Assembly: GCF_001269345.1 (NCBI RefSeq)
Contig: NZ_CXOP01000002.1
Span: 2,170,853-2,234,852 of the forward strand
Reading direction: 5' to 3'
DNA from: Limnohabitans sp. 2KL-27
Lineage (GTDB): Bacteria > Pseudomonadota > Gammaproteobacteria > Burkholderiales > Burkholderiaceae_C
DNA length: 64,000 bases
The notes below the pieces were generated by a model that saw nothing but the letters and a program-made list of their open reading frames with translations, was not told where the DNA came from and searched no databases. The stretch's first letter is position 1. Every line of letters starts with the position of its first letter. Below, piece by piece: positions 4,693 through 47,985 of this stretch. The translations under genes were made by a program, and so were the position numbers.

Positions 4693-5373
4693 ATGCCGTT
4701 TGGCCAAGCCCAAACAGCTTCCCCCCTGAATCTGCTCATGTCCGCCCTGTCCCTCGCCCCCCGCGCCCTGTACGAAGAAGTTGCCGAATTGCTGCGGCAG
4801 CGGATTTTTGCGCGCGAGCTGGAGCCCGGCAGTTGGATCGACGAGTTGCGCATCGCCGAGGCCCTGGGCATCAGCCGCACCCCTCTGCGCGAAGCCCTGA
4901 AGGTACTGGCCGCCGAAGGCCTGGTGACCATGAAGGTCCGCCGGGGCGCTTACGTGACCGAGGTCAGCGAGAAAGACCTGCGCGACGTCTACCACCTGCT
5001 GGCCTTGCTCGAATCCGACGCGGCCCGCGTGGTGGCGCACAACGCGAACGCTGAGCAGATGGCGCAGATCAGCGCCTTGCACCAGGATCTGGAAAAAGCC
5101 ACCCACGACCGGGACCGTTTTTTCGAGATCAACGAAGCTTTTCACATGCTGCTGATGGAATTGGCCGACAACCGCTGGCGCGACCAGATGGTGGCCGACC
5201 TGCGCAAGGTGATGAAGCTCAACCGCCACAGCTCACTGTTCAAAGAAGGCCGCATCGAGCAATCCCTGGCCGAGCACCGCGCCATTGTGCAGGCACTGGT
5301 AGCGCGTCAGCCCGAGCAAGCGGCCAAGCGCATGTCGGCGCACTTCATGAACGGCTTGCAGGCGGCGCAATGA
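4693..5373 (+). CDS. GntR family regulator, FCD (FadR-like) subfamily
   Basis: DNA-binding repressor or activator. The N-terminal winged helix covers about residues 25-90, with the typical stretch ALGISRTPLREALKVLAAEG followed by the wing (RRGAYVTEV). The C-terminal all-helical FCD ligand domain shows the usual acidic and histidine metal-ligand pattern (FFEINEAFH, EHRAIVQAL, SAHF). Being divergent from the mutase operon, it probably controls propionate genes in response to an organic acid or acyl-CoA, which is inferred from position. Two starts are possible, ATG 4693 or ATG 4738 (MSALSLAPRALYEE); neither has a convincing ribosome binding site. Length is 226 or 211 residues. Confidence 0.85.
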   Translation: MPFGQAQTASPLNLLMSALSLAPRALYEEVAELLRQRIFARELEPGSWIDELRIAEALGISRTPLREALKVLAAEGLVTMKVRRGAYVTEVSEKDLRDVYHLLALLESDAARVVAHNANAEQMAQISALHQDLEKATHDRDRFFEINEAFHMLLMELADNRWRDQMVADLRKVMKLNRHSSLFKEGRIEQSLAEHRAIVQALVARQPEQAAKRMSAHFMNGLQAAQ

Positions 5374-5385
5374 GGCAGGCCTTGA

Positions 5386-6387
5386 TCAGTCGGTGACGAC
5401 CGCGCCTCGCGCCAGCGCAGCTCGGGCCAAAGCCCAGACCTCACGCGGCGGCAAGGGCTTGAGTTTGTGGTCACTCCAGACCTGACGCCACAAACGCCCG
5501 CCCCGCTGGCCGTGGTACAGGCCCAGCATGTGACGGGCAATCGCATACCAAGGGCAGCCATCTTCGGCAAAAGCGCGTTCCATATAGGCCACCATGGCCT
5601 CTTCCACTGCTTCGCGGCTAGGCACCTCGTGGGTATCGCCATAAAACGCAGCGTCCCAAGTGCCCAACAGCCAAGGGTTGTAATAGGCTTCACGTCCAAC
5701 CATCACGCCGTCGGCCTGCTGCAAATGCAGAGCGATTTCCTCGTTGGTCTTGATGCCGCCGTTCACGGCGATCAGCAGCGATGGAAAATCTTTTTTGAGC
5801 CGATAGGCCAATTCATAGCGCAGCGGCGGGATTTCGCGGTTCTCCTTCGGGGAAAGGCCGTCGAGCCAGGCATTGCGGGCGTGCACGATGAAGACTTTGC
5901 AACCGGCATCGCTGACCGTACCCACAAAGTCGCGCACAAAGTCGTAGCTCTCGATGCGGTCAATGCCGATTCGGTGCTTCACCGTCACCGGCACATCGAC
6001 CACGTCCAGCATGGCTTTCACGCCATCGGCCACGGTGGTCGGCTCGTTCATCAAGCAGGCGCCAAATGCGCCACGCTGCACACGGTCTGAAGGGCAGCCG
6101 CAGTTGAGGTTGATCTCGTCGTAACCCCACTCTTGCCCCAGCTTGGCGGCGTGGGCCAGGTCGGCGGCGTCACTGCCGCCCAATTGCAGGGCCACCGGGT
6201 GCTCTTCGGCGTTGAAACGCAGGTGCCGCTGCACACTGCCGTGGCGCAGCGCACCAGTGGTCACCATCTCGGTGTACAGCAAGGTGTGGCGAGTCAGCAG
6301 GCGGTGGAAAAATCGGCAGTGCCGGTCGGTCCAATCCATCATGGGCGCCACAGAAAGACGCCAGCGTTGGGGTTCAGGGAAATGCAT
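5386..6387 (-). CDS. dusA: tRNA-dihydrouridine(20/20a) synthase DusA
   Basis: FMN- and NADPH-dependent enzyme that reduces U20/U20a in the D-loop of tRNAs. The TIM-barrel start VAPMMDWTDRHCR, the flavin contact VALQLGGSDA near residue 65, and the catalytic cysteine loop NLNCGCPSDRVQ near residue 95 are all visible, as are VKHRIGID and NGGI further on. The 333-residue length suits DusA. It is convergent with the GntR gene, with 12 bases between the stop codons, and divergent from the NfeD gene. DusA is preferred over DusB or DusC from the SVAPMMDWTD and LYTEMVTTGA stretches. Confidence 0.93.
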   Translation of the reverse strand: MHFPEPQRWRLSVAPMMDWTDRHCRFFHRLLTRHTLLYTEMVTTGALRHGSVQRHLRFNAEEHPVALQLGGSDAADLAHAAKLGQEWGYDEINLNCGCPSDRVQRGAFGACLMNEPTTVADGVKAMLDVVDVPVTVKHRIGIDRIESYDFVRDFVGTVSDAGCKVFIVHARNAWLDGLSPKENREIPPLRYELAYRLKKDFPSLLIAVNGGIKTNEEIALHLQQADGVMVGREAYYNPWLLGTWDAAFYGDTHEVPSREAVEEAMVAYMERAFAEDGCPWYAIARHMLGLYHGQRGGRLWRQVWSDHKLKPLPPREVWALARAALARGAVVTD

Positions 6388-6499
6388 GGGGGCTGATTAT
6401 CCTTGGCTTGCGCGGGACTTGACCCCGGCGCTGGGTGGTCAGCGTATAAAGACAGAAGTTCAAGCCCGACAATATGCGGGCCAAGCTGAAGGAGGCGAG

Positions 6500-6919
6500 A
6501 TGGGCAATGCAACGATGTGGTGGGTGCTGACCGGCGTGCTGGTGGCACTGGAGTTGGTGACTGGCACTTTTTACCTGCTGATGCTGGGCTTGGGGTCTGG
6601 GGCCGCAGCCTTGGCCGCGATGGCCGGCTATGGCCTGAGCACCCAACTGGTGGCGGCGGCCGTCGTGGGTGGCCTGGGGGCTGTGCTGCTGGGCCAATGG
6701 CGCAAACGCCAAACCCCCACGCCCCAAGAAGCCCAAGACCAGCACCTGGACCTGGGTGCCACCGTGCAAGTTGAGGCCTGGGACGCGCAAAGCACAGCTC
6801 AAGTCAAACACCGAGGTGCCGCTTGGACCGCCGTGCTGGCCCCCGGCCAATCCGCAGCGCCTGGCGCACACCGTATTCAGGCCATGTCAGGCAACCGCCT
6901 GGTTCTTGAAAAAATCTGA
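6500..6919 (+). CDS. NfeD family membrane protein
   Basis: Small membrane protein of 139 residues, starting MGNATMWWVLTG. Two to three hydrophobic segments (residues about 5-30 and 35-65) precede a soluble C-terminal OB-fold domain containing LDLGATVQVEAWD and the closing IQAMSGNRLVLEKI. NfeD proteins pair with SPFH proteins and are thought to help organise membrane microdomains or assist quality control. The start at 6500 is chosen because GGAGG lies at 6491-6495; a longer upstream reading frame would overlap dusA. The paraslipin gene follows after 36 bases, the standard arrangement for this pair. Confidence 0.87.
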   Translation: MGNATMWWVLTGVLVALELVTGTFYLLMLGLGSGAAALAAMAGYGLSTQLVAAAVVGGLGAVLLGQWRKRQTPTPQEAQDQHLDLGATVQVEAWDAQSTAQVKHRGAAWTAVLAPGQSAAPGAHRIQAMSGNRLVLEKI

Positions 6920-32357: not shown

Positions 32358-32427
32358 CCGGCTGCGCCGCAAAGGTCGATGTCCCATGGGTGATTTTCAA
32401 AATCCTGCCCGGTTTCACAATAGCCCC

Positions 32428-33861
32428 ATGCAATTGAATCTCATCGCCAACCAATCCGTCCCTGCCCTGGCAGGCCAAACCATTGACGTGCTCGACCCGT
32501 CTGACGGACAAGTGTTCGAACAAATCCCGCGCAGCCAAGCGGCCGACATCGATGCCGCTGTGGTGGCGGCGCGAACGGCCTTTAATGGTCCTTGGGGCAA
32601 GCTGAGCGCCATGGAGCGGGGTCGCCTGCTCATGAAGCTGTCGCAAAAAGTGAGCGAGCACGCCGCCGAACTGGCCGCGCTGGAGCAGCGCGACTGCGGC
32701 AAACCCACTAAACAGGCCGCTGCCGATTCGGTGGCTTTGGCGCGTTACTTTGAGTTTTATGCCGGAGCATGCGACAAGCTGCACGGCGAGACCCTGCCCT
32801 ACCAAAACGGTTACAGCGTACTGACCTGGCGCGAGCCACACGGCGTGACGGGCCATGTGATCCCCTGGAACTACCCCATGCAAATTTTTGGCCGCAGCGT
32901 GGGTGGCGCTTTGGCTGCGGGCAATGCCTGCGTGGTCAAACCCGCCGAAGACGCGTGCCTGAGCCTGATCAGGGTGGCGCAGTTGGCGGCCGAAGTCGGC
33001 TTCCCGGCCGGTGCCTTGAACATCGTCACGGGTTACGGCCACGAGGTGGGTGACGCGCTGGCCCGCCACCCCGGCATCGACCACATCAGCTTCACCGGCA
33101 GCCCCCGCGTGGGCACGCTGATCCAGCAGGTGGCCGCCGAGCGCCACTGCCCCGTGACGCTGGAGTTGGGTGGCAAAAGCCCCCAAATCATTTTTGACGA
33201 CGCTGACCTGGACGCCGCCATTCCCGTGGTGGTCAACGCCATCGTGCAGAACTCGGGCCAAACCTGCAGTGCAGGCTCCCGCGTGTTGATTCAGCAAGGC
33301 ATTTACGAGCCCCTGCTCAAGCGCTTGGGCGAAGCCTTTGGCCGCCTGCAAGTGGGCTCGGCCAGCATGAATCTGGACTTGGGTCCCCAGATACGCGCCA
33401 GCCAGTTGGAGCGGGTCACCGGCTTTTTGGACCAGGCCAAGGCGGATGGCATTGCCACCGTGGCCCAGGGGAAAATTGCGGCGGGTGTGCCTGCGGGCGG
33501 CTTTTACCAAGCCCCCACTTTGCTGCGCGATGTGCCGGTGATGCACCGCGTGGCGCAAGAAGAAGTGTTTGGCCCGGTGCTGTCGGCCATGTCCTTCAAA
33601 GACGAAGACCATGCCATTGAATTGGCCAACGCCACCGAGTTTGGCCTGGTCGCAGGCATCTGGACACGCGACGGCGGTCGCCAGTTCCGCATGGCCAAAC
33701 GCGTGCGCAGCGGCCAAGTCTTCATCAACAACTACGGCGCAGCGGGCGGGGTGGAGCTGCCATTCGGTGGCGTCAAGTCCTCAGGCTACGGCCGCGAAAA
33801 AGGCCTGGAAGCGCTGCTGGGCTTCACCACCCTCAAGACCGTGGCCATCGCACACGGCTGA
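32428..33861 (+). CDS. Aldehyde dehydrogenase family protein
   Basis: A 477-residue NAD(P)-dependent aldehyde dehydrogenase. The cofactor motif is VIPWNYPMQIFGRSVGGALAAGNACVVKPAE near residue 150, the catalytic glutamate is in VTLELGGKSPQIIFDDADL near residue 250, and the cysteine nucleophile in NSGQTCSAGSRVLIQ near residue 285. EEVFGPVLS and the C-terminal LPFGGVKSSGYGREKG are also present. The start is ATG 32428 (MQLNLIANQS). The substrate cannot be told; betaine aldehyde or gamma-aminobutyraldehyde type enzymes look similar. It is a stand-alone gene with terminator-like hairpins on both sides. Confidence 0.88.
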   Translation: MQLNLIANQSVPALAGQTIDVLDPSDGQVFEQIPRSQAADIDAAVVAARTAFNGPWGKLSAMERGRLLMKLSQKVSEHAAELAALEQRDCGKPTKQAAADSVALARYFEFYAGACDKLHGETLPYQNGYSVLTWREPHGVTGHVIPWNYPMQIFGRSVGGALAAGNACVVKPAEDACLSLIRVAQLAAEVGFPAGALNIVTGYGHEVGDALARHPGIDHISFTGSPRVGTLIQQVAAERHCPVTLELGGKSPQIIFDDADLDAAIPVVVNAIVQNSGQTCSAGSRVLIQQGIYEPLLKRLGEAFGRLQVGSASMNLDLGPQIRASQLERVTGFLDQAKADGIATVAQGKIAAGVPAGGFYQAPTLLRDVPVMHRVAQEEVFGPVLSAMSFKDEDHAIELANATEFGLVAGIWTRDGGRQFRMAKRVRSGQVFINNYGAAGGVELPFGGVKSSGYGREKGLEALLGFTTLKTVAIAHG

Positions 33862-37153: not shown

Positions 37154-37645
37154 TCACATCGTCTCCCCGATCATGTGCGCAGCTTCACCCAGAGCAGACT
37201 TTGCGTATAGGTATTCTTCAAAACAGCTGCCTGCATGCTTGATGGTGTGTGACTCTGGGTCCTTGAAGCAGTCTTCGGCCTTGGCCGGCATCAGGATGGC
37301 AGCCAGCAGCTAAGGCTTGCCAGCTTTGGGTTTACCGTCTAGCCCCCCTGCTGTTGCGATCAACATCATGGCTTCGACCTCATCCGTGTTGGTGACGCTG
37401 TGCATGAACCGGTCATCTGTGCTTTAAGTTCGGCCTCGGTGGTCTGCACGTGAGTACATAACTCATGGCTTTAGGCTGTTGGCCTTGATCTTGATCTCGT
37501 TGCCATCGACCACAATGTCGCCCCGCTTGTGCAACCCCATCTCGCGTTCTGGGAGCACCGCCCAGATAAACAATTCAGTGAATTCAGCCACTGGCAGCAG
37601 CCGAAAGCCCCGTATCGTCTGATGCGTCGAAAGTTGGCTGCCCAA
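37154..37645 (-). pseudogene. Decayed coding remnants, unknown protein(s)
   Basis: The 704 bases from 37051 to 37754 hold no intact gene. On the minus strand protein-like text continues across frame breaks. One frame ends in RGDIVVDGNEIKIKANSLKP (37463-37645). The next frame continues ELCTHVQTTEAELKAQMTG. A third continues FMHSVTNTDEVEAMMLIAT and stops at TAG 37310-37312. After that a short frame from 37291 to 37154 reads MPAKAEDCFKDPESHTIKH and ends in MIGETM. This pattern suggests one or two genes broken by frameshifts. I do not recognise the family. Position at the edge of the accessory operon suggests a relic of the insertion event. Confidence 0.35.
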
Positions 37646-37754: not shown

Positions 37755-38477
37755 ATGAGCCCCATCAGTTTTTCGGTTCAGGGAAAGCATGTCTTGATCA
37801 GCGGTGGTTGCGGAGGAATTGGCAGCGCCTTCGCCCACGCGTTCCTTGAACAGGGCGCCAATGTGATCGTCACAGACCTCAAGCCGCCGCCAGACGACCT
37901 GATCCGTGCAGGCGCACGTTTCGAGCCACTGGATGTGACCAGCGATGAAGGGGTGGTGGCGTTATCGAAAAAAATCGACAAGCTTGATGTGTTGATTCAC
38001 TGCGCCGGAAAGCTCAAACGCTGGGAGGAGCATCAGCCTGAAGTCTTTCGCGAGATCGTCGACATCCACCTTTTCGGCAATGTACGTCTAGCCGCCGCCT
38101 TCAGGCCCCAATTGAAAGCAACACAGGGCTGCCTAATCAACATTGCCTCAATGTACAGTTACTTTGGCGCCCCCCAAGTGCCCGCCTATGCTGCGGCCAA
38201 GACGGCTATCGTTGGACTGACCCGGTCATTGGCCTTGGCCTACGCCGAAGACGGGATTCGGGTGAACGCGATTGCTCCTGGCTGGATCGCCACCGACATT
38301 AGCCGCGGCGGGCGAGAAAACCCCGAATTCAACGACAAACTCATGACACGCTTGCCCAACAAGCGGTGGGCGGAGCCAGAGGAACTGGCTGGCACGGCGA
38401 TATTCCTCGCATCCTCCGCTTCGGCGTTGATCAATGGGGTGACGATTCCAGTAGATGGCGGCTACACCTCCGCCTGA
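37755..38477 (+). CDS. Short-chain dehydrogenase/reductase
   Basis: A 240-residue classical SDR, first gene of the accessory operon. The dinucleotide motif is VLISGGCGGIGSAF near residue 12, the acidic residue after strand 2 is in VIVTDLKPPPDD (suggesting NAD preference), and the catalytic serine and YxxxK are in NIASMYSYFGAPQVPAYAAAKTAIVGL near residues 130-155. It ends ALINGVTIPVDGGYTSA. I start at ATG 37755 (MSPISFSVQGKH). It probably oxidises or reduces the sugar substrate or a cleavage product. A sulfoquinovose dehydrogenase role is possible but no lactonase or dehydratase is nearby. Confidence 0.85.
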   Translation: MSPISFSVQGKHVLISGGCGGIGSAFAHAFLEQGANVIVTDLKPPPDDLIRAGARFEPLDVTSDEGVVALSKKIDKLDVLIHCAGKLKRWEEHQPEVFREIVDIHLFGNVRLAAAFRPQLKATQGCLINIASMYSYFGAPQVPAYAAAKTAIVGLTRSLALAYAEDGIRVNAIAPGWIATDISRGGRENPEFNDKLMTRLPNKRWAEPEELAGTAIFLASSASALINGVTIPVDGGYTSA

Positions 38478-38527
38478 TTTCGCAAGTAGTGTTGGTACAT
38501 AGGCGTTTTAACAAAAAGGAGTTCAAG

Positions 38528-39832
38528 ATGAGGCATACCCTTGGCGTTCTGGCCGCTGCGGCCGCGATGGTTTTCAGTTCTGGTTCTGCCGTTGCGCAGG
38601 CCTTCAACTGGAAAAAACACGACGGACAGACAATCAATCTGCTCCTGAACAACCACCCTTGGTCGCAGGCGATCAAGGACATGTCAGGCGATTTCACCGC
38701 CAAGACGGGTATCAGGCTGCGCGTGGAGATCTTCAACGAAGAACAATACCGCGCCCGCCTGAACACCATGCTGCAGGCCAAATCCAGCGATATCGATGTG
38801 TTCATGTCGCTTAAGTTCCGTGAAGGTGCCATGTACGACAAGGCTGGTTGGTACGCCAACTTGAGCCCGCTTCTTGCGTCATCGGCCTCAACCTCGCCCG
38901 ATTTCAACTTCACCGACATCGGCGAAGGTCTTCGTCGCGCTGAGACAATCGGCGACAAGCTGGTGGGCCTCCCTATCAACCTTGAAGGTCCCCTCTTTTA
39001 CTGGAACAAGGAGATCTTTCAAAAGTGCAATGTGGCAGAACCCATGTTTCTGGAAGACCTGCCAGAAGCTGCTGCCAAACTCAAGGCTTGCCCTGCCCGC
39101 GGTGACGCGACGGTTTGGGCCGCACGCGGTATCCGCGGTGCGATCTCTTATGCGGTCTCAGGTTTCATCTACAACAGCGGCGGCGATTTTTCGGGGGCCA
39201 ATGGCAAGCCAAGCATGTGCAACCCGAACAGTATCAAGGGAGCAGAACTCTATGCGACGCTGCTCAAGGACTACGGACCTCCCGGTGCCGCCAACCACAC
39301 CTTCACCCAAGTGATTGAAATGCTGGGCCAAGGAAGGCTGGCAATGACGCACGAATCTTCCAATGAATTCGCCAACATCATGAAGTTCCCTGGGCGAGAC
39401 AAGGACATCGGCATCAAAGTGCTGCCCAAGGGAAAGGCTACCGGCATTTCCAAGCCCATTGTGTTCGGTTGGGGCGTTTCGGTGTCCAACTTCTCAACCA
39501 AGAAGGACGCAGCATGGTTCTTTCTGCAATGGGCCACCAGCGCAGAGATGCAGACTAAGCTTGTCAAGAACGGCGTAGCACCCCCACGCGCATCGGTGTT
39601 CAATGGCCCAGAGTTTAAGACGTGGACCACGGAGTTGCCCGTACGTCAGTCCTGGGCCAATGCGTTGGTCGAGATCAGCAAGACCGGAACGGCCATCTCT
39701 TACCCACCCACAGAGCGTGTAGTTGAAGCACGCGAGATGGTAGGTGCCGCCGTCCAAAAGGTCTTCTTGGGACAAGGCAACGCAAAGGACACCTTGTGCG
39801 CGCTTGACGGCGAATTGGCCAAACTGCAGTAA
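38528..39832 (+). CDS. ABC sugar transporter substrate-binding protein (family 1)
   Basis: A 434-residue periplasmic binding protein. The signal peptide is MRHTLGVLAAAAAMVF... cleaved near AVAQ-A (residue 24). The mature part starts FNWKKHDGQTINLLLNNHPW and shows the family-1 fold with TAKTGIRLRVEIFNEEQYRARLNTMLQAKSSDIDVFMSL, LVGLPINLEGPLFYWNKEIF and the late DAAWFFLQWATSAEMQ. AAGGAG at 38516-38521 supports the start. It feeds the two permeases that follow directly. The ligand is not readable, but this family takes up oligosaccharides, sugar glycosides and glycerol-linked sugars. Confidence 0.9.
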   Translation: MRHTLGVLAAAAAMVFSSGSAVAQAFNWKKHDGQTINLLLNNHPWSQAIKDMSGDFTAKTGIRLRVEIFNEEQYRARLNTMLQAKSSDIDVFMSLKFREGAMYDKAGWYANLSPLLASSASTSPDFNFTDIGEGLRRAETIGDKLVGLPINLEGPLFYWNKEIFQKCNVAEPMFLEDLPEAAAKLKACPARGDATVWAARGIRGAISYAVSGFIYNSGGDFSGANGKPSMCNPNSIKGAELYATLLKDYGPPGAANHTFTQVIEMLGQGRLAMTHESSNEFANIMKFPGRDKDIGIKVLPKGKATGISKPIVFGWGVSVSNFSTKKDAAWFFLQWATSAEMQTKLVKNGVAPPRASVFNGPEFKTWTTELPVRQSWANALVEISKTGTAISYPPTERVVEAREMVGAAVQKVFLGQGNAKDTLCALDGELAKLQ

Positions 39833-39843
39833 GACATAAAGCA

Positions 39844-40707
39844 ATGAAGGCACAGCGGGCGGCATCACTCCACGGGCTTATGTGGCCCGCAGTGGCCTTC
39901 GTCATATTGATGGTGGTATTTCCATTCGGCTATGCCTTTTGGCTGAGCCTGATGGATTACAAAATCGGACAGCCCCACCAATTTATCGGTCTGGGTAACT
40001 ATAGGGCGCTCCTGATCGACGAACAGTTCTGGAATGGAGCGCGACTGAGTGCAATCCTTTATGTCAGTGCACTCGCAGTGCAACTCGTTTTAGGAGTTGC
40101 CTTGGGGATGCTTTTGCACCGCGTGCAGGTCATGCGTGGCCTGCTACGGACACTGATGGTCTCGCCTTTTATGCTCCCTCCGGTGGTCATCGGAATGATG
40201 TCCATCGTGATTCTCGACCCTGGCATGGGGGTTGCTAATTTTTTACTGAAGTCAGCCAACCTGCCAACCAGTCTTTTCTTGGCTTCCACCGATTACGTGA
40301 TCTTCACTGTAGTGATGATTGATACTTGGCAGTGGACGCCTTTTGTGGCCCTGATCGTACTGGGCGGGTTGCAGTCGCTGCCCACGAAAATTTATGAAGC
40401 AGCGTCTATCGATGGTGCCACGGGATGGCGTGAATTTTTTTACATCACCCTGCCAATGTTAGGCCCCACGATCTTGACCGCCGCTGTGCTTCGCAGCGTT
40501 GACCTGCTGCGCTTTTTTGATGTGATATACATCACCACACAGGGCGGACCGGGCTATGCCTCCTCAACCCTCAATATCTACGCTTATCGCAAAGCGTTCG
40601 AATTTTCAGACTTGGGCTACGCGTCAGCCCTGATGATCACATTGAGCACCATCGTACTGGGTGCTGTGCTGGTGTTTTCGCAAATGCGAAAGAAGGTGAC
40701 TTGGTGA
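39844..40707 (+). CDS. ABC sugar transporter permease (MalF type)
   Basis: A 287-residue inner-membrane permease with six hydrophobic segments. The EAA loop that docks with the ATPase is EAASIDGATGWREFFYITLPMLGP near residues 180-203. It starts 11 bases after the binding-protein stop and overlaps the second permease. Its partners are the second permease and the MalK-like ATPase in the same operon. Confidence 0.92.
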   Translation: MKAQRAASLHGLMWPAVAFVILMVVFPFGYAFWLSLMDYKIGQPHQFIGLGNYRALLIDEQFWNGARLSAILYVSALAVQLVLGVALGMLLHRVQVMRGLLRTLMVSPFMLPPVVIGMMSIVILDPGMGVANFLLKSANLPTSLFLASTDYVIFTVVMIDTWQWTPFVALIVLGGLQSLPTKIYEAASIDGATGWREFFYITLPMLGPTILTAAVLRSVDLLRFFDVIYITTQGGPGYASSTLNIYAYRKAFEFSDLGYASALMITLSTIVLGAVLVFSQMRKKVTW

Positions 40708-41516
40708 GAAAAATCCTCCTAAAGTACCTGATGGGGCTTCAAGTTTTCATCTTGTGCATCGCACTTTTTGCCCCCATTGCATGGATGATTTTGGCCAGTT
40801 TCAAGAACCGCGCCGACATCACCAAGTATCCACCCCAGCTGCTTTTTACGCCTACCCTGGAAAACTACACCCAGCTGTTCACTAGAACTGATTTTTTGGA
40901 AAACACCCTCAATAGTTTTTATGTCGCTGGGGGCTCCACCTTGCTAGGCTTGTTACTGGCGGTGCCAGCAGCCTATGCCATCTCTTGGCACCGGCTGGTC
41001 TGGCCAGCCACCCTGACCCTGTTCGCTCGCATGGCACCCGGCACGCTGTTTTTGTTGCCGTGGTTCATCATGTTTTCCAATGTTGGTCTGTCCGGCACCC
41101 ACTTCGCTCTGATCATCACGCACGCGGTGATCACCGTGCCCATCGCCTTGTGGACCTTGCTCCCACACTTTGATGGTCTGCCAAGGGAGTTGACTGAGAG
41201 CGCTCAAATCGACGGCTGCGGTGCACTCAAGATTTTGCTGCTTATTGCCCTGCCAGTCGTGATGCCAGGGCTGATTGTGGCGGTGATCCTGTCCTTCATC
41301 TTCTCGTGGAACTATTTCCTTTTTGCGCTCGCACTTTCAGGCATCTCCTCAAAGACGGCTATTGTTGCGTCCTTTAATTTCATCGGCGAAGGTGTGACCA
41401 ACTGGGGGGCACTCATGGCAGCCGCCACAGTCATCGCCCTGCCACCGATCATCCTGACCTTTGTGATCCAGCGAAAACTGGTGGCAGGTCTTGCCTTTGG
41501 CGCAGTGAAAGGTTGA
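40704..41516 (+). CDS. ABC sugar transporter permease (MalG type)
   Basis: A 270-residue permease with six hydrophobic segments. The EAA-like loop is LTESAQIDGCGALKILLLIALPVVMPG near residues 165-190. The start is GTG 40704, overlapping the previous stop as GTGA, with AGAAGG seven bases upstream; TTG 40701 is the alternative. It completes the membrane part of the importer. Confidence 0.9.
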   Translation: MRKILLKYLMGLQVFILCIALFAPIAWMILASFKNRADITKYPPQLLFTPTLENYTQLFTRTDFLENTLNSFYVAGGSTLLGLLLAVPAAYAISWHRLVWPATLTLFARMAPGTLFLLPWFIMFSNVGLSGTHFALIITHAVITVPIALWTLLPHFDGLPRELTESAQIDGCGALKILLLIALPVVMPGLIVAVILSFIFSWNYFLFALALSGISSKTAIVASFNFIGEGVTNWGALMAAATVIALPPIILTFVIQRKLVAGLAFGAVKG

Positions 41517-41520
41517 TGAC

Positions 41521-42486
41521 ATGAAGGCAGCGAGGTTTGATGGCGAAGGCCAAATTTCGATCGCAGAGGTCCCTACACCCGTCGCCCCCGCTGGTGAGGT
41601 GTTGCTTCGGGTTAAGGCATGCTCTCTTTGTGGAAGCGACTTGCGCCCGTGGCGCAAGGGCTGGCCAGTGACGCCTGGGCACGAAATTTTTGGGATCGTC
41701 CAACATCCCGGTCATGCCCTTCATGGGAAAAGGTGCTTGGTTTACATCCCTGTCTGGTGCGGCCAATGTCCTGAATGCTTAGCCGGTCAACACCACATTT
41801 GCCGTAACGCCAACGAACTGATTGGTTGGCAAAGGCCTGGTGGCTACGCGCAATATGTCAGCGTGCCTGATCAATGCCTCTTGCCGGTACCCGATGACAT
41901 CCCTGATCATCTGGCCCCCTTGCTGCTGGATACGATCGGTACGGCCGGTCACGGTGTTCGCCTGAGCCGCAAGATCGTCAATTCGGGCAAAGCATTGGTG
42001 ATGGGCGCTGGCCCTATCGGGCTGGGGGGATTGCTGGTTCTACAGAACTTTGGCTTTGAGCGAGTTGAGGTGTTTGATCCGAATCGATTTCGTCGCGAAT
42101 TTGCCGCTTCACTCGGTGCTGTCGCGCTGGAATCGGTAGACCTTACTGCGGCCTACGATCTTGTCCTAGAGTGCAGCGGCAAGGATGCCGGGCGCCAGAC
42201 TGCCCTAGAGGCGGTCAGAGCCCATGGCGCTGTGGTGCAATTGGGTGAATCTGACACATGGCAGGTCCATGAGACGAAGGCTATTCGGCGCAAGGATTTT
42301 TACTACATCCGCTCGTTTTACTTCCCAATCAGCGAGTACGCAGAAAACATCGAGATTCTGCGCAAGAAAAGACCCCAATTCGAGCAACTGGTCGATGCTC
42401 AAGTCCCTCTGGAGGGTCTTTCTGACCTGTTCGTTAGATTTGCAGCAGGCGACCGCATCAAGCCCCAACTTCATATTCATGATTGA
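41521..42486 (+). CDS. Zinc-dependent alcohol dehydrogenase (MDR family)
   Basis: A 321-residue medium-chain dehydrogenase. The catalytic zinc region is CSLCGSDLRPWRKGWPVTPGHEIFG near residues 35-60, and the structural zinc lobe is intact: CGQCPECLAGQHHIC near residues 80-95. The Rossmann fold is near residue 155 (KALVMGAGPIGLGGLLVLQNFGF). Members with this layout oxidise polyols or sugars such as sorbitol, galactitol or L-threonine. In this operon it could oxidise the imported substrate, or reduce the aldehyde released by aldol cleavage. It sits between the permease and ATPase genes, so it is an integral part of the transcription unit. Confidence 0.88.
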   Translation: MKAARFDGEGQISIAEVPTPVAPAGEVLLRVKACSLCGSDLRPWRKGWPVTPGHEIFGIVQHPGHALHGKRCLVYIPVWCGQCPECLAGQHHICRNANELIGWQRPGGYAQYVSVPDQCLLPVPDDIPDHLAPLLLDTIGTAGHGVRLSRKIVNSGKALVMGAGPIGLGGLLVLQNFGFERVEVFDPNRFRREFAASLGAVALESVDLTAAYDLVLECSGKDAGRQTALEAVRAHGAVVQLGESDTWQVHETKAIRRKDFYYIRSFYFPISEYAENIEILRKKRPQFEQLVDAQVPLEGLSDLFVRFAAGDRIKPQLHIHD

Positions 42487-42493
42487 TTACCCT

Positions 42494-43549
42494 ATGGCTG
42501 GCGTCACCATTCGCAATGTCAAAAAGAACTACGGCGACGTCAAGGTCATTCGTGATCTGAGCGTTGAAATTCAAGCCGGCGAATTTCTAGTCTTTGTCGG
42601 ACCATCAGGATGCGGGAAATCCACACTCCTGCGCATGATCGCTGGACTCGAGAGTTTTGAGTCTGGCGAAATCCATATCAATGGCAATCGCGTCAATGAC
42701 CTGCACCCGAGCAAGCGCGACATCGCCATGGTCTTCCAAGAGTACGCACTGTATCCGCACATGTCAGTAAGAAAGAACATGGGATTTGGGCTGAAGATGC
42801 GTGGCTACCCAGCGCAAGAAATCGACCAGCGCATCGACAGCGCAGCGGCGATTTTGCAGATCGAACCTTTGCTCGAACGCAAGCCGCGAGAACTCTCTGG
42901 CGGCCAGCGCCAACGTGTGGCAATGGGTCGCGCCATTGTGCGAAACCCCCAGGTTTTTTTGTTCGATGAGCCGCTGTCCAACCTAGATGCCAAGCTTCGC
43001 GTGGACATGCGAAGCGAGATCAAGGCGCTCCATCAGCGCTTAAAAACCACTTCAGTCTATGTCACCCATGACCAGGTCGAGGCGATGACCATGGCTGACC
43101 GAATCGTCGTGCTCAATAAGGGTGAAATTGAGCAAGTGGGCACCCCACTGGAGCTTTACAACGCCCCGGTTTCGCGCTTTGTCGCCGGCTTCCTTGGCTC
43201 GCCGCCGATGAACTTTTTACCGGTGCAATTGCAGCCAAATCGTATCGACCTGCCAAACGGTCAGTCGATACCTTATGCGGGCTCTTTTTTGGGCGCTGCG
43301 GACTTGGGGATCCGGCCAGAAAACTTGTCTGTCGTACCTGACGGAGAAAATGCACACCTCAGTGGCGAAGTATCCCTGATCGAGCCCCTTGGTGCCGATA
43401 CCCTCATCACCATCAAGACCGGCGTGCACAAAATTGTCGCACGCGTGATTGGTGCCTCCTCGATGCGACTTGGCGAGCAAGCAGGCCTCACCTGGCGCGC
43501 GCAGGACCATCATCTTTTTGAAGGTGCCAGCGGACAGAGGCTGACATGA
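42494..43549 (+). CDS. ABC sugar transporter ATP-binding protein (UgpC/MalK type)
   Basis: Energises the importer. Walker A is VGPSGCGKSTLLRMIAGL near residue 37, the Q-loop VFQEYALYPHMSV, the signature LSGGQRQRVAMGRAIVRNP near residue 134, Walker B FLFDEPLSNLDA, and the H-loop YVTHDQVEAMTMADR. A C-terminal TOBE domain (about residues 235-350, LGIRPENLSV) is present. I start at ATG 42494 (MAGVTIRNVKK); ATG 42479 is also open and would overlap the dehydrogenase stop. The length is about 351 residues. It overlaps the kinase gene as ATGA. Confidence 0.93.
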   Translation: MAGVTIRNVKKNYGDVKVIRDLSVEIQAGEFLVFVGPSGCGKSTLLRMIAGLESFESGEIHINGNRVNDLHPSKRDIAMVFQEYALYPHMSVRKNMGFGLKMRGYPAQEIDQRIDSAAAILQIEPLLERKPRELSGGQRQRVAMGRAIVRNPQVFLFDEPLSNLDAKLRVDMRSEIKALHQRLKTTSVYVTHDQVEAMTMADRIVVLNKGEIEQVGTPLELYNAPVSRFVAGFLGSPPMNFLPVQLQPNRIDLPNGQSIPYAGSFLGAADLGIRPENLSVVPDGENAHLSGEVSLIEPLGADTLITIKTGVHKIVARVIGASSMRLGEQAGLTWRAQDHHLFEGASGQRLT

Positions 43550-44451
43550 GCCGTCTCGTCTGTTTAGGAATGGTCGTCAAAGATATCGTTTTTCGAGTCC
43601 CCAAGATCCCTTCTCTACCCCAAAAGCTGACCGCATTTGAATTGCGAAGCCAGTTCGGCGGGATGGCTGCGACCGCTGCGGCTGCGGCGGCTGCGCTCGG
43701 GGGCAAGGTCGAATTTTGGGGGCGAATTGGTGATGACGAATCGGGCCAAGAGGCCATGCACGCATTTCGACGTCGAGGAGTCGAGCCACGATTGAGCGTC
43801 ACCATCGGTTCGCAGTCGCCCATGTCCGCAGTCATTGTTGATGAAGCTGGAGAACGCATGCTGGCGGTCTACACTGGCCTGCTTGATCCAGCAACGGATT
43901 GGCTGCCGCTTGAAAAGCTCCAAGGCGCAGGTGCAGTACACGCCGATTTTCGCTGGGTCGAGGGAGCCCGTGCACTTTACGAAGCCGCACGCGCCCAAGG
44001 TATTCCGCGGGTACTGGATGCGGACGCGGGCAACAATGAGGCGGTCCGGTCCCTCATCGCACTCGCAGATCACGTTATTTTTTCCGAGCGCGGCCTGGCA
44101 GAAATAGCCGGTGACATGCCGGCCGATCAGGCACTGCTCCAAGTGGCACAGGACGCAGCCGAGGATCCGTCGAGGGTGATGGGTGTCACGTTGGGCGACC
44201 GGGGCAGCCTCTTTTGCCACGCGGGTCGCATTCATGCCTTTGCTGCGCCTCGCATCAAGCCCACAGATACCAATGGCGCTGGAGATGTTTTTCACGGTGC
44301 CTACGCATTGGCGTTGGCGCGAGGTCAGTCTTGGGTCCAGTCTGTGAACTACGCCACGACCGCGGCTAGCCTCAAATGCACGCGTGACCACGGTTGGGAC
44401 CAACTGCCCGATCACGAAGAAGTGACAGCCTTCATGCAGGCTCATTCATGA
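43546..44451 (+). CDS. PfkB-family sugar kinase, YihV-like
   Basis: A 301-residue ribokinase-fold kinase resembling 6-deoxy-6-sulfofructose kinase YihV. Shared text with the E. coli enzyme (recalled from memory) includes FGGMAATAAAAAAALGG against its GGGPAATAAVAAARLG, VHADFRWVEGARALYEAAR against VLADVRWHDGAKKAF, and HVIFSERGLAEIAGD. The catalytic GAGD motif is in DTNGAGDVFHGAYALALARG near residue 245. The arginine of DFRW and the lysine of PQKL align with sulfonate-contacting positions I recall (K27, R138). The third, N109, aligns with valine. So a sulfosugar, or another ketose phosphate position, remains possible. It overlaps both flanking genes as ATGA. Confidence 0.85.
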   Translation: MSRLVCLGMVVKDIVFRVPKIPSLPQKLTAFELRSQFGGMAATAAAAAAALGGKVEFWGRIGDDESGQEAMHAFRRRGVEPRLSVTIGSQSPMSAVIVDEAGERMLAVYTGLLDPATDWLPLEKLQGAGAVHADFRWVEGARALYEAARAQGIPRVLDADAGNNEAVRSLIALADHVIFSERGLAEIAGDMPADQALLQVAQDAAEDPSRVMGVTLGDRGSLFCHAGRIHAFAAPRIKPTDTNGAGDVFHGAYALALARGQSWVQSVNYATTAASLKCTRDHGWDQLPDHEEVTAFMQAHS

Positions 44452-45254
44452 CCGACGCGCTCACCCCCCGTTCACGCCGCGAAAAGATTTTGGAACTCGT
44501 CAAGCAGGCGGGTTACATGCCTATTGAGGCTCTGACCTTGAATTTCCAGGTGACACCGCAGACGATCCGTGTAGATCTCAATGTGCTGGCCGACGAAGGC
44601 CGGGTCGTACGCCATCACGGGGGCGCTTCGATCCCCTCAAGTGTGACCAACACCGACTACGAATCCCGTCGATCAGATTTTGCTGGCGTCAAATCCAGTC
44701 TGGCTCAAGCCGTTTCGAACACCATCTCTGACAAAAGCGCGGTGTTCATGGCGCTGGGAACCACAATGCTGGCGATGGCTGCGGCGTTGTCAAATCGCAA
44801 AGGTTTGAAGATCATCACCAACCACACCGAGGCAGCCTTGATGCTCGCCAAGCAACCAGGATTTGACGTGGTCGTACTCGGCGGTCGACTTGATCCGAGG
44901 AATCTCGGAACCACGGGGCCCATGACCCTCGAGGCTGTAGCCAACTACCGACCAGACGTTTGCATTTTCAGCGCGGGTGGCATCGACACTGAAGGAAACA
45001 TCTTGGACTACTACGAGCACGAGGCAGCCATCGTGCGCCTCATGATCAAGCGCTCGCGCCGGAGTATTTTGGCAGTGGATCACAGCAAGTTTGGCCGCAG
45101 CGCTTCAGTGCTTGTGGGCAATGTGGCGGACATCCACCAGCTTTTTACCGATAAGCCGCCGCCCGCCGGCATCAAGAAGCTCTTGAAGCTACACAAGACC
45201 GACCTGATCCAGGTTCCCCAACGACATGCAGGAAATTTCCATGGCCGCTCCTAA
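44448..45254 (+). CDS. DeoR family transcriptional regulator, YihW-like
   Basis: A 268-residue repressor. The N-terminal helix-turn-helix is SRREKILELVKQAGYMPIEALTLNFQVTPQTIRVDLNVLADEG followed by the family mark VVRHHGGA. The C-terminal sugar-phosphate sensor domain starts near residue 90 and has ITNHTEAALMLAKQPGFDVVVLGG, SAGGIDTEGNILDYYEHEAAIVRLM and LAVDHSKFG. It starts at ATG 44448, overlapping the kinase stop as ATGA. Its position beside YihV- and YihT-like genes parallels E. coli YihW. It probably binds the CGAARTCGAAA repeats upstream of the operon and is released by a phosphorylated intermediate. Confidence 0.9.
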   Translation: MTDALTPRSRREKILELVKQAGYMPIEALTLNFQVTPQTIRVDLNVLADEGRVVRHHGGASIPSSVTNTDYESRRSDFAGVKSSLAQAVSNTISDKSAVFMALGTTMLAMAAALSNRKGLKIITNHTEAALMLAKQPGFDVVVLGGRLDPRNLGTTGPMTLEAVANYRPDVCIFSAGGIDTEGNILDYYEHEAAIVRLMIKRSRRSILAVDHSKFGRSASVLVGNVADIHQLFTDKPPPAGIKKLLKLHKTDLIQVPQRHAGNFHGRS

Positions 45255-46116
45255 ACCTATTGATGCATTAACCCGGCCCTCGGGCGCCTTTGCCATGCTT
45301 GCGATCGACCAGCGTGAATCGATGCGCGCCATGTTTGGCGAGTATCAAAAAACACCGGTGAGCGACCAACAACTCACCGACTTTAAGTTGGCAGCGCTTC
45401 GAGCTCTTTCACCACTGGCTTCTGCTGTCCTGATAGACCGCCAGTTTGCCTGGCGCCAGGCGATCGACCAGCACGCCGTGGCGCCCAGCTGCGGGTTGAT
45501 CGCTGCAGCAGATGATTTCATTCCCAGCCCCAACGAAATCGTCTCTGACGTGAGGATCGACGAGAAAGTCGAGCCGCTGTCGGTCAAGGCCGATGGTGCA
45601 TTGGCACTCAAGTTGCTGGTGCTGTGGCGTCCAGATGAAAGCGCGGAGGTTCGCAAGGACATGGTGCGTGATTTCATCGGTCGATGTCGACAGGCGGGGC
45701 TCGTGAGCATCATCGAGCCGGTATCTCGTAAGCCTCGTGACGGACGAGCCTGGGACACAAATGACGGCATACAGGCCGCGGCCGAAGAATTAGGCAACCT
45801 GGGCGCTGACCTCTACAAAGCCGAGGTACCTTTGCATGGACAAGGCGGTGAACGCGCAGTGCGTGGGGCGAGCGCGCGTCTCAATCAGACAATCAAGGGG
45901 CCTTGGGTGGTGCTGTCCTCGGGCGTATCGCCCGACGATTTTCCGCAGGCTGTTGAATGGGCATGCAGGGAAGGTGCAAGCGGATTTCTGGCCGGTCGTG
46001 CCGTTTGGCGAAATGTCATTGGAAGCCGTGACATCCCGCGAGCCCTGATCGACGACGCTGCGGTGCGCCTGCAACGTCTGATCGATGTGGTGGATCGCGT
46101 GGTCGTTCGCTGCTGA
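45241..46116 (+). CDS. Class I aldolase, YihT (sulfofructosephosphate aldolase)-like
   Basis: A 291-residue TIM-barrel aldolase close to YihT. Landmarks match in order: LTRPSGAFAMLAIDQRESMRAMF at the start, the Schiff-base lysine in GADLYKAEVPLHGQG, VVLSSGVSPDDFPQAVEWA and GASGFLAGRAVW. YihT cleaves 6-deoxy-6-sulfofructose 1-phosphate to dihydroxyacetone phosphate and sulfolactaldehyde; related LacD enzymes cleave tagatose 1,6-bisphosphate. I prefer ATG 45241 (MAAPKPIDAL), with AGGA just upstream; ATG 45226 is open. It overlaps the DeoR gene by 14 bases. Similarity to YihT over the whole length is high by eye, but substrate is not proven. Confidence 0.87.
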   Translation: MAAPKPIDALTRPSGAFAMLAIDQRESMRAMFGEYQKTPVSDQQLTDFKLAALRALSPLASAVLIDRQFAWRQAIDQHAVAPSCGLIAAADDFIPSPNEIVSDVRIDEKVEPLSVKADGALALKLLVLWRPDESAEVRKDMVRDFIGRCRQAGLVSIIEPVSRKPRDGRAWDTNDGIQAAAEELGNLGADLYKAEVPLHGQGGERAVRGASARLNQTIKGPWVVLSSGVSPDDFPQAVEWACREGASGFLAGRAVWRNVIGSRDIPRALIDDAAVRLQRLIDVVDRVVVRC

Positions 46117-46139
46117 GACAGGCTCGCACCAGGCCCCAT

Positions 46140-46883
46140 ATGGCTGAGAACAACTTCATATCACCCATCGAAGCCCAGGTTCGCCGGGAATTGGCCGCCT
46201 TTTATAGGCTGATGGCGCACTTCAATATGACGGATTTGATCGACACGCATATCAGCGCGCGCGTGCCCGGAACGCCCGACCATTTCCTCATTAACCGCTA
46301 TGGCGTTCTCTTTGACGAAATGCGTTCGCAGGATTTGGTCAAGATCGATCTGCAGGGGCGTTTGGTAGAAGGCCAAGACCCTGCGAACTCACGCATCAAC
46401 CTAGCGGGTTTCACCATTCATTCCGCAATCCATGCCGCGCGACACGATCTGGCCTGTGTGGTTCACACCCACACAACCGATGGAATAGCAGTTTCTTGCC
46501 AAGCGGAGGGACTATTGCCTATCAGCCAGCACGCTCTGAAGTTCTTCAACCGGATCGGTTACCACGACTACGAAGGTGTTGCGCTCGATCTGGACGAGCG
46601 CGCCCGCCTAGCCAGGAGCATGGGTCCGCATGAGGTGATGATCCTGCGCAATCACGGCTTGGTGGCTGCGGGCTCGTCTATCCCTAAGGCATTTCACAAC
46701 ATCATGTTTTTGGAGCGTGCCTGCAGCGCACAGATCAAGGCACTGAGTGGTGGACGCCCGTTGTCGATCCCAAGTCCCGAGGTCTGTGCGCGAGCAAGCG
46801 AGCAAGGCTCTGATCGAGCCGAGGTGTCCGAGATCGTGCAACTAGGTTGGGATGCAGCTTTGCGGCTGTTACGCCCAATCTGA
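46140..46883 (+). CDS. Adducin-like/class II aldolase family protein
   Basis: A 247-residue protein of the class II aldolase/adducin fold. Zinc-ligand histidines are visible in CVVHTHTTDGIAVS and in MILRNHGLVAAG. The glutamate that serves as catalytic base in fuculose-phosphate aldolase (EWRFH stretch) is replaced: this protein has AGFTIHSAIHAARHD at that place, as in adducin head domains. GLLPISQHAL and IGYHDYEG are also adducin-like. It may therefore be a decarboxylase, epimerase-like or non-catalytic member rather than a true aldolase. It lies between the two class I aldolase genes of the operon. Confidence 0.82.
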   Translation: MAENNFISPIEAQVRRELAAFYRLMAHFNMTDLIDTHISARVPGTPDHFLINRYGVLFDEMRSQDLVKIDLQGRLVEGQDPANSRINLAGFTIHSAIHAARHDLACVVHTHTTDGIAVSCQAEGLLPISQHALKFFNRIGYHDYEGVALDLDERARLARSMGPHEVMILRNHGLVAAGSSIPKAFHNIMFLERACSAQIKALSGGRPLSIPSPEVCARASEQGSDRAEVSEIVQLGWDAALRLLRPI

Positions 46884-46935
46884 TCAGCCGGCTGGGCTCA
46901 TTTTTGATCTCGAAATTTTTGAAGGCCACCTCGAC

Positions 46936-47985
46936 ATGCTATTGACGCCACTGAACTTGGGCAAGACTCGAGGCATGCGACGCCTGGCCAATCAAACCGG
47001 GCATTTCACGACCATTGCCCTGGACCAACGTCCACCGATTGCTCAGATACTGGCAGCGCGAAGGGGTGTCGCTCCTGATCAGGTAGGTTTTGACGACATG
47101 ATGGCGGCCAAGCGCGTCATCGTGGAGACCCTGGGCCCTAGCGCAAGCGCCATGTTGTTTGATCCAAATTACGCACTACCCGCTGCGATCGCTTGCTTGC
47201 CAGCGCACACAGGTCTGATCGTGACACTCGAGGACCATCGGTTTCAAGATACGCCAGGTGGGCGTATGTCGAACTCGATTGCCAATTGGAATGTCGACAA
47301 GATCAAGCGCTTAGGCGGCGATGGGGTTAAGGTGCTGGCGTGGTACCGTCCCGATGCCGCGCCCGAGGTCTTGGCCCATCAAAAAGCCTATGTGAAACAC
47401 GTGGGCGACGAGTGTCGTCGCTGTGATATTGCGTATGTGCTTGAACTCTTAACCTATCCGTTCAAGAGGCTCGACGGCAAGCCTTGTCCACAATTGCCAG
47501 AAGTACAGGCGCAAAACGTGATCGACAGCCTGCGCGAATTTTCAAAGCCCGAATATGGGGTGGATTTGTTCAAATTGGAAAGCCCACTGCCGGGCGCAAG
47601 CTTGCCTGAAACGGACGGATCGGTTCCGCATCAGTTGGCGCTCAATTGGTTCAACGAGATGGGACGAATCTGCCGCGAAGCGAGCGTGCCGTGGGTGATG
47701 TTGTCCGCGGGGGTGACGCCTGAGCAGTTCTTGCGGGTCATGCATTACGCTTACGCCGCGGGTGCCAATGGCTTCTTAGCTGGACGAGCGATCTGGTCTG
47801 AAGCACTGCAATGTTTTCCTGATTTGCAAGCTTGCCGCGAGGTACTGCGCGTGCAGAGCCTGCAGACTCTCCAGCGCCTTATGGATCTCACGCACAGAGA
47901 GGGGCAAGCTTGGACACCGAGCTATAACGGCTTGGATCAAATTCAAGTCGAGGGCGATATGTGCAACGCCTACACCAGCTCCTGA
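46936..47985 (+). CDS. Tagatose-1,6-bisphosphate aldolase-like (LacD family)
   Basis: A 349-residue class I aldolase distantly related to the YihT-like protein in the same operon. Landmarks are TTIALDQRPPIAQIL near residue 25, LIVTLEDHRFQDTPGGR, the Schiff-base lysine in VDLFKLESPLPGAS near residue 215, WVMLSAGVTPEQFLRVMHYAYAAGANGFLAGRAIW near residue 260. I start at ATG 46936 (MLLTPLNLGKTRG); an ATG at 46852 lies inside the preceding gene. Having both a YihT-like and a LacD-like aldolase suggests two cleavage substrates or a heteromer. No terminator is visible after it. Confidence 0.85.
   Translation: MLLTPLNLGKTRGMRRLANQTGHFTTIALDQRPPIAQILAARRGVAPDQVGFDDMMAAKRVIVETLGPSASAMLFDPNYALPAAIACLPAHTGLIVTLEDHRFQDTPGGRMSNSIANWNVDKIKRLGGDGVKVLAWYRPDAAPEVLAHQKAYVKHVGDECRRCDIAYVLELLTYPFKRLDGKPCPQLPEVQAQNVIDSLREFSKPEYGVDLFKLESPLPGASLPETDGSVPHQLALNWFNEMGRICREASVPWVMLSAGVTPEQFLRVMHYAYAAGANGFLAGRAIWSEALQCFPDLQACREVLRVQSLQTLQRLMDLTHREGQAWTPSYNGLDQIQVEGDMCNAYTSS

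Follow-up and report, generated by a model that had tools for sequence, protein, structure and literature searches.

An eleven-gene operon with relatives of sulfosugar enzymes

The stretch of DNA analyzed here (the window) comprises 64,000 nucleotides from Limnohabitans sp. 2KL-27 and contains, at positions 37755-47985, a tight run of 11 genes on one strand (+) whose products probably import a sulfur-containing sugar and split it into two three-carbon pieces. According to profile matches (SDR, solute-binding, permeases, ADH_N/zinc dehydrogenase, UgpC-type ATPase, PfkB, DeoR, DeoC/LacD, and class II aldolase/adducin), the genes code in this order for a short-chain dehydrogenase/reductase (SDR), the binding protein and two permeases (PermA and PermB) of an ATP-binding cassette (ABC) importer, a zinc-dependent dehydrogenase (ZnDH), the ATPase, a PfkB kinase, a DeoR-family regulator, a class I aldolase (aldolase 1), an adducin-like protein, and another class I aldolase (aldolase 2). 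An initial annotation had described this operon with the same position and gene order, all of which is present. It had also spoken of many 4-base overlaps, and overlaps do occur, but “many” is slightly too strong since, with the start codons used here, only three of ten junctions (PermA/PermB, ATPase/kinase, and kinase/DeoR) overlap by exactly 4 bases; DeoR and aldolase 1 overlap by 14. The arrangement goes beyond chance, because a Rubrivivax metagenome-assembled genome (MAG; L005) has the same 11 genes in identical order, with 70-94% identity, and because parts of the gene set recur near the aldolase in 22 other YihT-type and four LacD-type loci, being scarcest in L018, L063, and L073.

The PfkB kinase (43546-44451, +) has as best match in the Protein Data Bank (PDB) sulfofructose kinase 7ag6 (E 3e-48), followed by 2rbc (E 1e-39) and ribokinases (E 8e-25 and weaker), and with 36.8% identity to YihV of Escherichia coli (E 6e-47) it is a sulfofructose kinase homologue. 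Columns aligned to K27 and R138 of YihV, which together with N109 we take to be sulfonate-binding residues, are conserved. When 27 kinases encoded in these or related loci were aligned (two of them YihV), 22 proved to have both columns, and six of these 22 have N109 as well. The pair is not kept in L064, L067, L017, L072, and L074; these five kinases are encoded next to YihT-type aldolases, although the aldolase of L074 shares 66% identity with YihT, and they constitute perhaps a second kinase lineage. Another PfkB protein from the Limnohabitans genome itself (L002) lacks R138 and has a gap at the K27 column. The DeoR-family regulator (44448-45254, +) is 38.9% identical to CsqR, i.e., YihW (E 8e-62).

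Aldolase 1 (45241-46116, +) is of the YihT type. Its best PDB matches are 7ag1, 7ag7, and 1to3 (E 1.2e-89 or better), whereas 8tnf (1.4e-17) and LacD enzymes (3e-10 or weaker) match more weakly. It is a sulfofructose-1-phosphate aldolase homologue that shares 53.3% identity with E. coli YihT over 285 amino acids and retains the lysine column of YihT K193. The tree computed from 25 YihT-type and two LacD-type sequences has open forks at 11 of 24 inner branches, so that only its starred splits are used; in it, aldolase 1 belongs to a clade of 22 rows (support 99/97) that does not include E. coli YihT, L074, or L018. It does not fall into a clade with characterized enzymes for non-sulfonated sugars, in a tree holding few characterized enzymes.

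Aldolase 2 (46936-47985, +) is closest, at 55-59% identity, to a protein of Paracoccus strain Merri whose structure is titled sulfohexulose-1-phosphate aldolase (PDB 8TNF); judging by strain and family, this should be Merri protein MDP0926269. A structural model of aldolase 2 (eight sequences; mean confidence score, pLDDT, 76.5) resembles many class I aldolases, with 8TNF clearly ahead. Assignment to LacD fails at the equivalog level (TIGR01232, 141.8 bits versus a cut-off of 432.2), although the protein passes the broad subfamily PRK12858 (363.8 bits versus 184). The second aldolase is nearest to a protein of a sulfofucose degrader and is not a LacD proper. The trio of YihV-, YihW-, and YihT-like proteins seen in the initial annotation is borne out by the identities given above, and since, among the matches of these searches, the closest named relatives of the kinase, the regulator, and both aldolases are sulfosugar enzymes or a sulfosugar regulator, homology and gene context provide good evidence for sulfosugar chemistry.

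The SDR (37755-38477, +; PF13561) shares 84-86% identity with its Rubrivivax counterpart, 65-66% with that of Variovorax E3, and 43.5% with the SDR of a Shinella operon. It was rejected as a sulfofucose 1-dehydrogenase because its identity to the SDR in an Arthrobacter locus of the Entner-Doudoroff (ED) type is no more than 28%, a judgment based on the Arthrobacter protein and not on SfcH itself. The solute-binding protein (38528-39832, +; PF13416/PF01547) has 5iai, 4rya (“Sorbitol”), and 1eu8 as best solved relatives, followed by SmoF (7nbz, E 1e-10); its AlphaFold prediction (five sequences, mean pLDDT 37.2) was put to no use. PermA (39844-40707, +) and PermB (40704-41516, +) belong to PF00528, and the ATPase (42494-43549, +) is of the UgpC/MalK type (NF008653, 502.2 bits versus a cut-off of 432). 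ZnDH (41521-42486, +; PF08240), a medium-chain dehydrogenase/reductase (MDR), is 57-61% identical to proteins of six loci from a Belnapia/Roseomonas family search and 48-54% identical to those of 11 of 13 matching plasmid records. Of all loci compared, L005 and L006 alone encode close relatives (73-85%) of the class II aldolase/adducin-like protein (46140-46883, +; NF005451, 328.7 bits versus a cut-off of 207).

The operon looks acquired, because its GC content of 56.1% is below the approximately 62% of either flank, an IS1182-like transposase remnant marks its left border, and a YihT-type aldolase was found in only this one of 399 genomes of the family, five others of the genus included. The remnant (37415-37585; 171 bases, 70.9% identical to an annotated IS1182 family transposase on a Polaromonas plasmid) lies in the gap before the SDR gene. 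Judging from translations, moaA-, mobA-, and moeA-like genes are situated upstream and an RND-pump-like gene on the opposite strand downstream.

Relatives in other genomes and on plasmids

Scanning genome contigs for relatives yielded five loci. Matching genomes numbered 5 of 398 in the phylum and 1 of 399 in the family, the Limnohabitans genome being counted in both, and 3 of 346 and 13 of 299 in two further sets, which include genomes already sampled. YihT-type aldolases were also matched in 22 plasmid records, of which four non-enterobacterial ones were examined. The resulting 24 YihT-type loci consist of the window, the five scan loci, the four plasmids, and 14 regions from the sets of 346 and 299 genomes; the enterobacterial loci L011-L014, L075, and L076 are excluded, and the two of these that were examined (L075 and L076) carry YihS. 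Since the loci are partly close kin (e.g., L007, L008, L065, and L066) and not independent, the counts that follow are descriptions and not tests.

Within 9 kb of the aldolase, a kinase is encoded in 21 of the 24 loci and ABC permeases in 18. An MDR is present in 17, an SDR in 13, and a member of the mannitol-dehydrogenase family in four, so that 22 loci possess at least one of these dehydrogenases and only L063 and L073 have none. In L018 and L068, the sole dehydrogenase is an SDR on the opposite strand. MDR and SDR occur together in eight loci, in three of which (L007, L061, and L062) the SDR lies on the opposite strand. In L007, L008, L065, and L066, the mannitol-dehydrogenase-family gene is located beside the operon, also on the opposite strand. 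A succinate-semialdehyde dehydrogenase (SSADH)-type gene is found in six loci, TauE in two, and a YihU relative in two. Neither YihS nor YihQ was found within this distance in the 24 YihT-type or in four LacD-type loci. In 20 control stretches from four genomes, hand-placed at round coordinates, an SDR occurs in three and the other ten gene classes in none.

Some of these loci have further neighbors. In L072, the set of kinase, aldolase, dehydrogenase, and transporter genes stands beside an hpsN/hpsO/suyA/suyB/slcC/comC-like set, all of it no farther than about 11 kb from the aldolase. A tartrate-dehydrogenase-family gene adjoins SSADH in four YihT-type loci, i.e., L015 (11348-12403), L006, L061, and L062; as sulfolactate is an analogue of malate, one might guess that its product may act on sulfolactate. 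Plasmid pB of the laboratory strain Cereibacter sphaeroides 2.4.1 bears a set of genes for ABC importer, ZnDH, SSADH, TDH, aldolase, and kinase. On the plasmid of Arthrobacter YA7-1 (L017, 9075-17143), genes for an SDR, a galactonate-dehydratase-type, a dihydrodipicolinate-synthase-type, and an SMP-30 protein directly precede those for PfkB kinase, YihT-type aldolase, SSADH, and TauE, so that sets of the ED type and the Embden-Meyerhof-Parnas (EMP) type are adjacent.

A second group of operons contains a LacD-type aldolase. Among plasmid records, 13 match ZnDH of the window and 12 match aldolase 2, and in 11 records both occur about 3 kb apart; four of these 11 and one other were examined. On plasmids of Neorhizobium NCHU2750, Shinella HZN7, and Rhizobium CC-CFT758, the genes encode a LacI-like regulator, binding protein, PermA, PermB, ZnDH, ATPase, kinase, aldolase 2, SDR, a mandelate racemase/muconate lactonizing enzyme (MR/MLE)-type protein, and a TSUP protein. 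The Shinella operon additionally has SSADH, and sulfatase genes come next in Neorhizobium and Rhizobium. In Variovorax SPNA7, the order is LacI, binding protein, SDR, PermA, PermB, ZnDH, ATPase, kinase, and aldolase 2. Overall, SSADH is found in one of the four LacD-type loci (L077-L080) and TauE/TSUP in all four, once as a 97-residue match on the opposite strand. These operons share with the window the order from the binding protein over PermA, PermB, ZnDH, ATPase, and kinase to aldolase 2, plus an SDR, but the window interposes three genes between kinase and aldolase 2. They also differ by a LacI-like regulator in place of DeoR and by genes for TSUP, MR/MLE, and SSADH in some of them, and no YihT-type aldolase or adducin-like gene was seen in them. 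Because this gene order is common to the Neorhizobium, Shinella, Rhizobium, and Variovorax plasmids, the layout of the window belongs, as far as gene order tells, to a spread-out family of operons. The Limnohabitans operon looks like one of the plasmid type to which a YihT-type aldolase and an adducin-like gene were added and in which a CsqR-like regulator stands for LacI. The initial idea that a yih core was simply recombined with new parts is therefore not upheld, although the kinship with YihV, YihT, and YihW and the sulfonate context are.

Known systems are similar in part. E. coli sulfo-EMP (yih) shares YihV-, YihT-, and CsqR-like proteins, but the window operon has an ABC importer and dehydrogenases instead of YihS, YihQ, YihR, YihU, and YihO/P. 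In the available part of its description (PMC8873060), the modified sulfo-EMP pathway of Arthrobacter AK01/AK04 has ABC importer, kinase, aldolase, and the lack of a known sulfoquinovosidase in common with the window operon, while encoding YihS and a sulfolactaldehyde (SLA) dehydrogenase, neither of which the operon has. The sulfofucose degrader Paracoccus wurundjeri Merri possesses, according to the part of its report available to us (PMC12421959), a cluster 2 with a PF08240 dehydrogenase, a PF00294 kinase, a PF01791 aldolase, and an ABC importer. The same families occur in the window operon, a likeness judged by domain families and by the title of 8TNF. SuyAB-, SlcC-, and ComC-like genes exist in both genomes, and beyond Merri the window operon has the YihT-type aldolase, the CsqR-like regulator, and the adducin-like protein. 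Merri also has the ED set SfcH/D/F/E, its demonstrated route, whereas a search limited to the window operon detected no MR/MLE dehydratase, PF03328 aldolase, or lactonase. On a Sinorhizobium mexicanum plasmid (L114), an SSADH gene (5364-6797), whose product is 68% identical to SSADH of a Cereibacter operon, shares a 41-kb region with DgoD-, SDR-, and SuyAB/SlcC/ComC-like genes and is a candidate for the kind of SLA dehydrogenase reported missing in Merri.

Putative sulfonate genes elsewhere in the Limnohabitans genome

The initial annotation had seen no counterparts of YihQ, YihS, and YihU, and none is encoded in the operon. This absence extends to the genome for the YihS family PF07221 and the YihQ family GH31 (PF01055), neither of which gave a match, in searches that covered neither SqvD nor GH188; for YihU, only relatives with 27-33% identity exist elsewhere. 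No SLA reductase or dehydrogenase is encoded in the operon. Five SSADH-class proteins of the genome are 37-57% identical to the Cereibacter SSADH, the best at 57%. An aldehyde dehydrogenase of the window (32386-33858) reached no cut-off among the 25 models listed and was discarded as a clear SLA dehydrogenase.

A cluster resembling hps and suy genes for three-carbon sulfonates (G000:C2:2337778-2347153; L103, 2335000-2350000) is located about 119 kb downstream. It contains a histidinol-dehydrogenase-family gene, an SDR, a SerC-like gene, a zinc dehydrogenase, and a 93-amino-acid gene 65% identical to the one that precedes suyB in Cupriavidus. Further members are a GD_AH gene about as large as SuyB, a gene for a D-2-hydroxyacid dehydrogenase, a sulfolactate-dehydrogenase-like gene, and a PF03601 protein, SlcC- and ComC-like genes being part of the cluster. 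For the sulfolactate-dehydrogenase-like gene, L-sulfolactate dehydrogenase is the best NCBIfam model at 227 bits, under the cut-off of 500. The matched genes on plasmid p2 of C. pinatubonensis (hpsN-hpsO-ZnDH-UxaA-UxaA) are in the same order, with identities of 80% (HpsN-like), 65% (HpsO-like), 61% (ZnDH), 65% (SuyA-like), and 84% (SuyB-like). The plasmid record names only hpsN and hpsO; the other names are taken in part from a review (PMC9594981). By sequence, the genome thus seems to encode HpsN, HpsO, zinc dehydrogenase, SuyA, and SuyB for degradation of 2,3-dihydroxypropane-1-sulfonate (DHPS) and sulfolactate. Cupriavidus pinatubonensis is the species in which the DHPS route with HpsN, HpsO, HpsP, and SuyAB was elucidated (PMC9594981). 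ZnDH of the operon shares 25.5% identity with the zinc dehydrogenase of this cluster and was dismissed as its equivalent; the two SDRs are 34% identical.

A possible variant of sulfoglycolysis and its alternatives

What we propose, and consider rather probable, is an ABC-fed variant of sulfo-EMP for a six-carbon sulfosugar in which one or more dehydrogenases replace the isomerase, i.e., a variant of sulfoglycolysis with known kinds of parts in an unusual wiring. A sulfohexose (sulfofucose or sulfoquinovose) or a sulfohexitol would be imported by binding protein, permeases, and ATPase, and ZnDH and/or the SDR would convert it to a 6-deoxy-6-sulfo-ketohexose, a step for which sulfo-EMP uses an aldose-ketose isomerase. 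The kinase would then phosphorylate C1 of the sulfoketose, and one or both aldolases would cleave the product to dihydroxyacetone phosphate (DHAP), which would enter central metabolism, and SLA. Oxidation of SLA to sulfolactate could be the task of an enzyme whose gene is not part of the operon, either an SSADH homologue or the HpsN-like protein, and pyruvate and sulfite could then be formed by SlcC/ComC-like and SuyAB-like enzymes of the cluster about 119 kb downstream. We infer the dehydrogenase step because no isomerase gene stands beside the aldolases and because unlike dehydrogenases recur there; the substrate, the specificity of kinase and aldolases, and the link to the hps/suy-like cluster are likewise inferred. 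Gene order, homology, the lack of matches to the YihS and YihQ families in the genome, and the existence of the hps/suy-like cluster are read directly from the sequence. ZnDH might make the sulfoketose, and the SDR might be one of two dehydrogenases for the imported compound. In a bolder form, to which we give tentative credence, the two dehydrogenases would interconvert sulfoaldose, sulfohexitol, and sulfoketose, replace the isomerase, and feed two sulfo-aldolases, taking a sulfosugar or sulfohexitol all the way to sulfite. HpsO and HpsP acting on DHPS would be a precedent, in kind only, for such a pair of SDR and ZnDH, HpsP being presumably of the zinc MDR class. At a guess, the two aldolases might each handle one C4 epimer, fructo or tagato. 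We know of no report of a natural sulfohexitol, and literature searches found no full text with “sulfohexulose”, no mention of “sulfosorbitol” in the five papers listed, and no paper on both Limnohabitans and sulfoquinovose.

Several observations weigh against this proposal. The operon contains no SSADH, YihU, TauE, or SuyAB gene, and the scheme has no place for the adducin-like protein. The clade of aldolase 1 is sister to E. coli YihT, so that the protein lies outside the YihT clade proper. Genes resembling suyB are present in 55 of the 399 genomes of the family (in none of the five others of the genus), while the YihT-type aldolase was found in this genome only, so that the hps/suy-like cluster speaks only weakly for a link; the seven TauE-family genes of the genome are uninformative since all 14 control genomes have such genes. 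In Merri, as far as the available text reports (PMC12421959), sulfofucose, which is degraded by an ED route, did not induce the kinase and the PF01791 aldolase, isomerase activity was not detected, and the zinc dehydrogenase was induced yet did not oxidize SLA. Furthermore, four of eight relatives have PF07221 genes elsewhere (in three cases in a whole genome, in one in a plasmid record) and two of eight, in an overlapping set, have GH31 genes in their genomes, so that the pathways of the relatives need not be isomerase-free.

One alternative is an ordinary sulfo-EMP pathway for sulfoquinovose, in which a non-homologous isomerase (e.g., of the SqvD type) and a sulfoquinovosidase from outside GH31 are encoded elsewhere in the genome and SDR and ZnDH have side roles. 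There is precedent for both omissions, as SqvD takes the place of YihS in some sulfo-EMP clusters (PMC9594981, in part) and the Arthrobacter clusters mentioned above do without a known sulfoquinovosidase (PMC8873060). We nevertheless allow it only a minor chance, as YihS is encoded nearby in none of the 24 loci and an accessory role poorly explains why dehydrogenases of three unlike families recur there. The pathway may instead concern a non-sulfonated hexitol or ketose, with a dehydrogenase forming the ketose, the kinase its 1-phosphate, and the aldolases DHAP and glyceraldehyde. Among solved structures, the binding protein is closest to sugar-binding and “Sorbitol”-binding proteins and not to sulfosugar proteins; the dehydrogenases are of polyol types, including the mannitol-dehydrogenase-family gene in four loci; and, among the best 120 listed, relatives of aldolase 2 are annotated as tagatose 1,6-diphosphate aldolase. 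In addition, the kinase carries V at the column of YihV N109, its runner-up among PDB matches (2rbc) is titled “Sugar kinase” with no stated substrate, and a paper connects the yih cassette to a lactose cassette found in Bacilli (PMC5816610, in part). Such a pathway is unlikely in our view, since kinase, regulator, and two aldolases of different lineages all point to sulfosugars by their nearest named relatives and since TauE/TSUP, SSADH, sulfatase, and hps/suy-like genes adjoin the relatives, sulfonate-metabolism surroundings that also agree with the sulfosugar leaning of the initial annotation. Very improbable is a sulfofucose-type ED route in which the SDR is a sulfosugar 1-dehydrogenase and kinase and aldolases stay unused, as they seemingly do in Merri (PMC12421959): L077-L079 combine an SDR with an MR/MLE-type gene, but the window operon was found to have neither this gene nor PF03328 or lactonase genes, its SDR bears little resemblance to the one accompanied by DgoD- and SMP-30-type genes in Arthrobacter, and kinase and both aldolases retain open frames and conserved motifs. 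The variant with dehydrogenases in place of the isomerase remains our preferred explanation.

Sulfosugars are a major reservoir in the sulfur cycle. A survey from 2026 calls sulfo-EMP only where sulfoquinovose isomerase, kinase, and aldolase genes occur together with one for an SLA enzyme (PMC13372026, in the part available), and a variant lacking the isomerase would be overlooked by it because that isomerase is required. In Merri, the available text demonstrates no role for the kinase, the PF01791 aldolase, and the zinc dehydrogenase (PMC12421959); the operon described here is conserved and has no cleavage machinery other than parts of these kinds, which suggests a possible job for these orphan enzymes. 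If the proposal is true, a gap in what is understood of how sulfur is recycled in nature becomes testable, and if its redox-driven branch is true as well, one bacterium would degrade a sulfosugar or sulfohexitol fully to sulfite.

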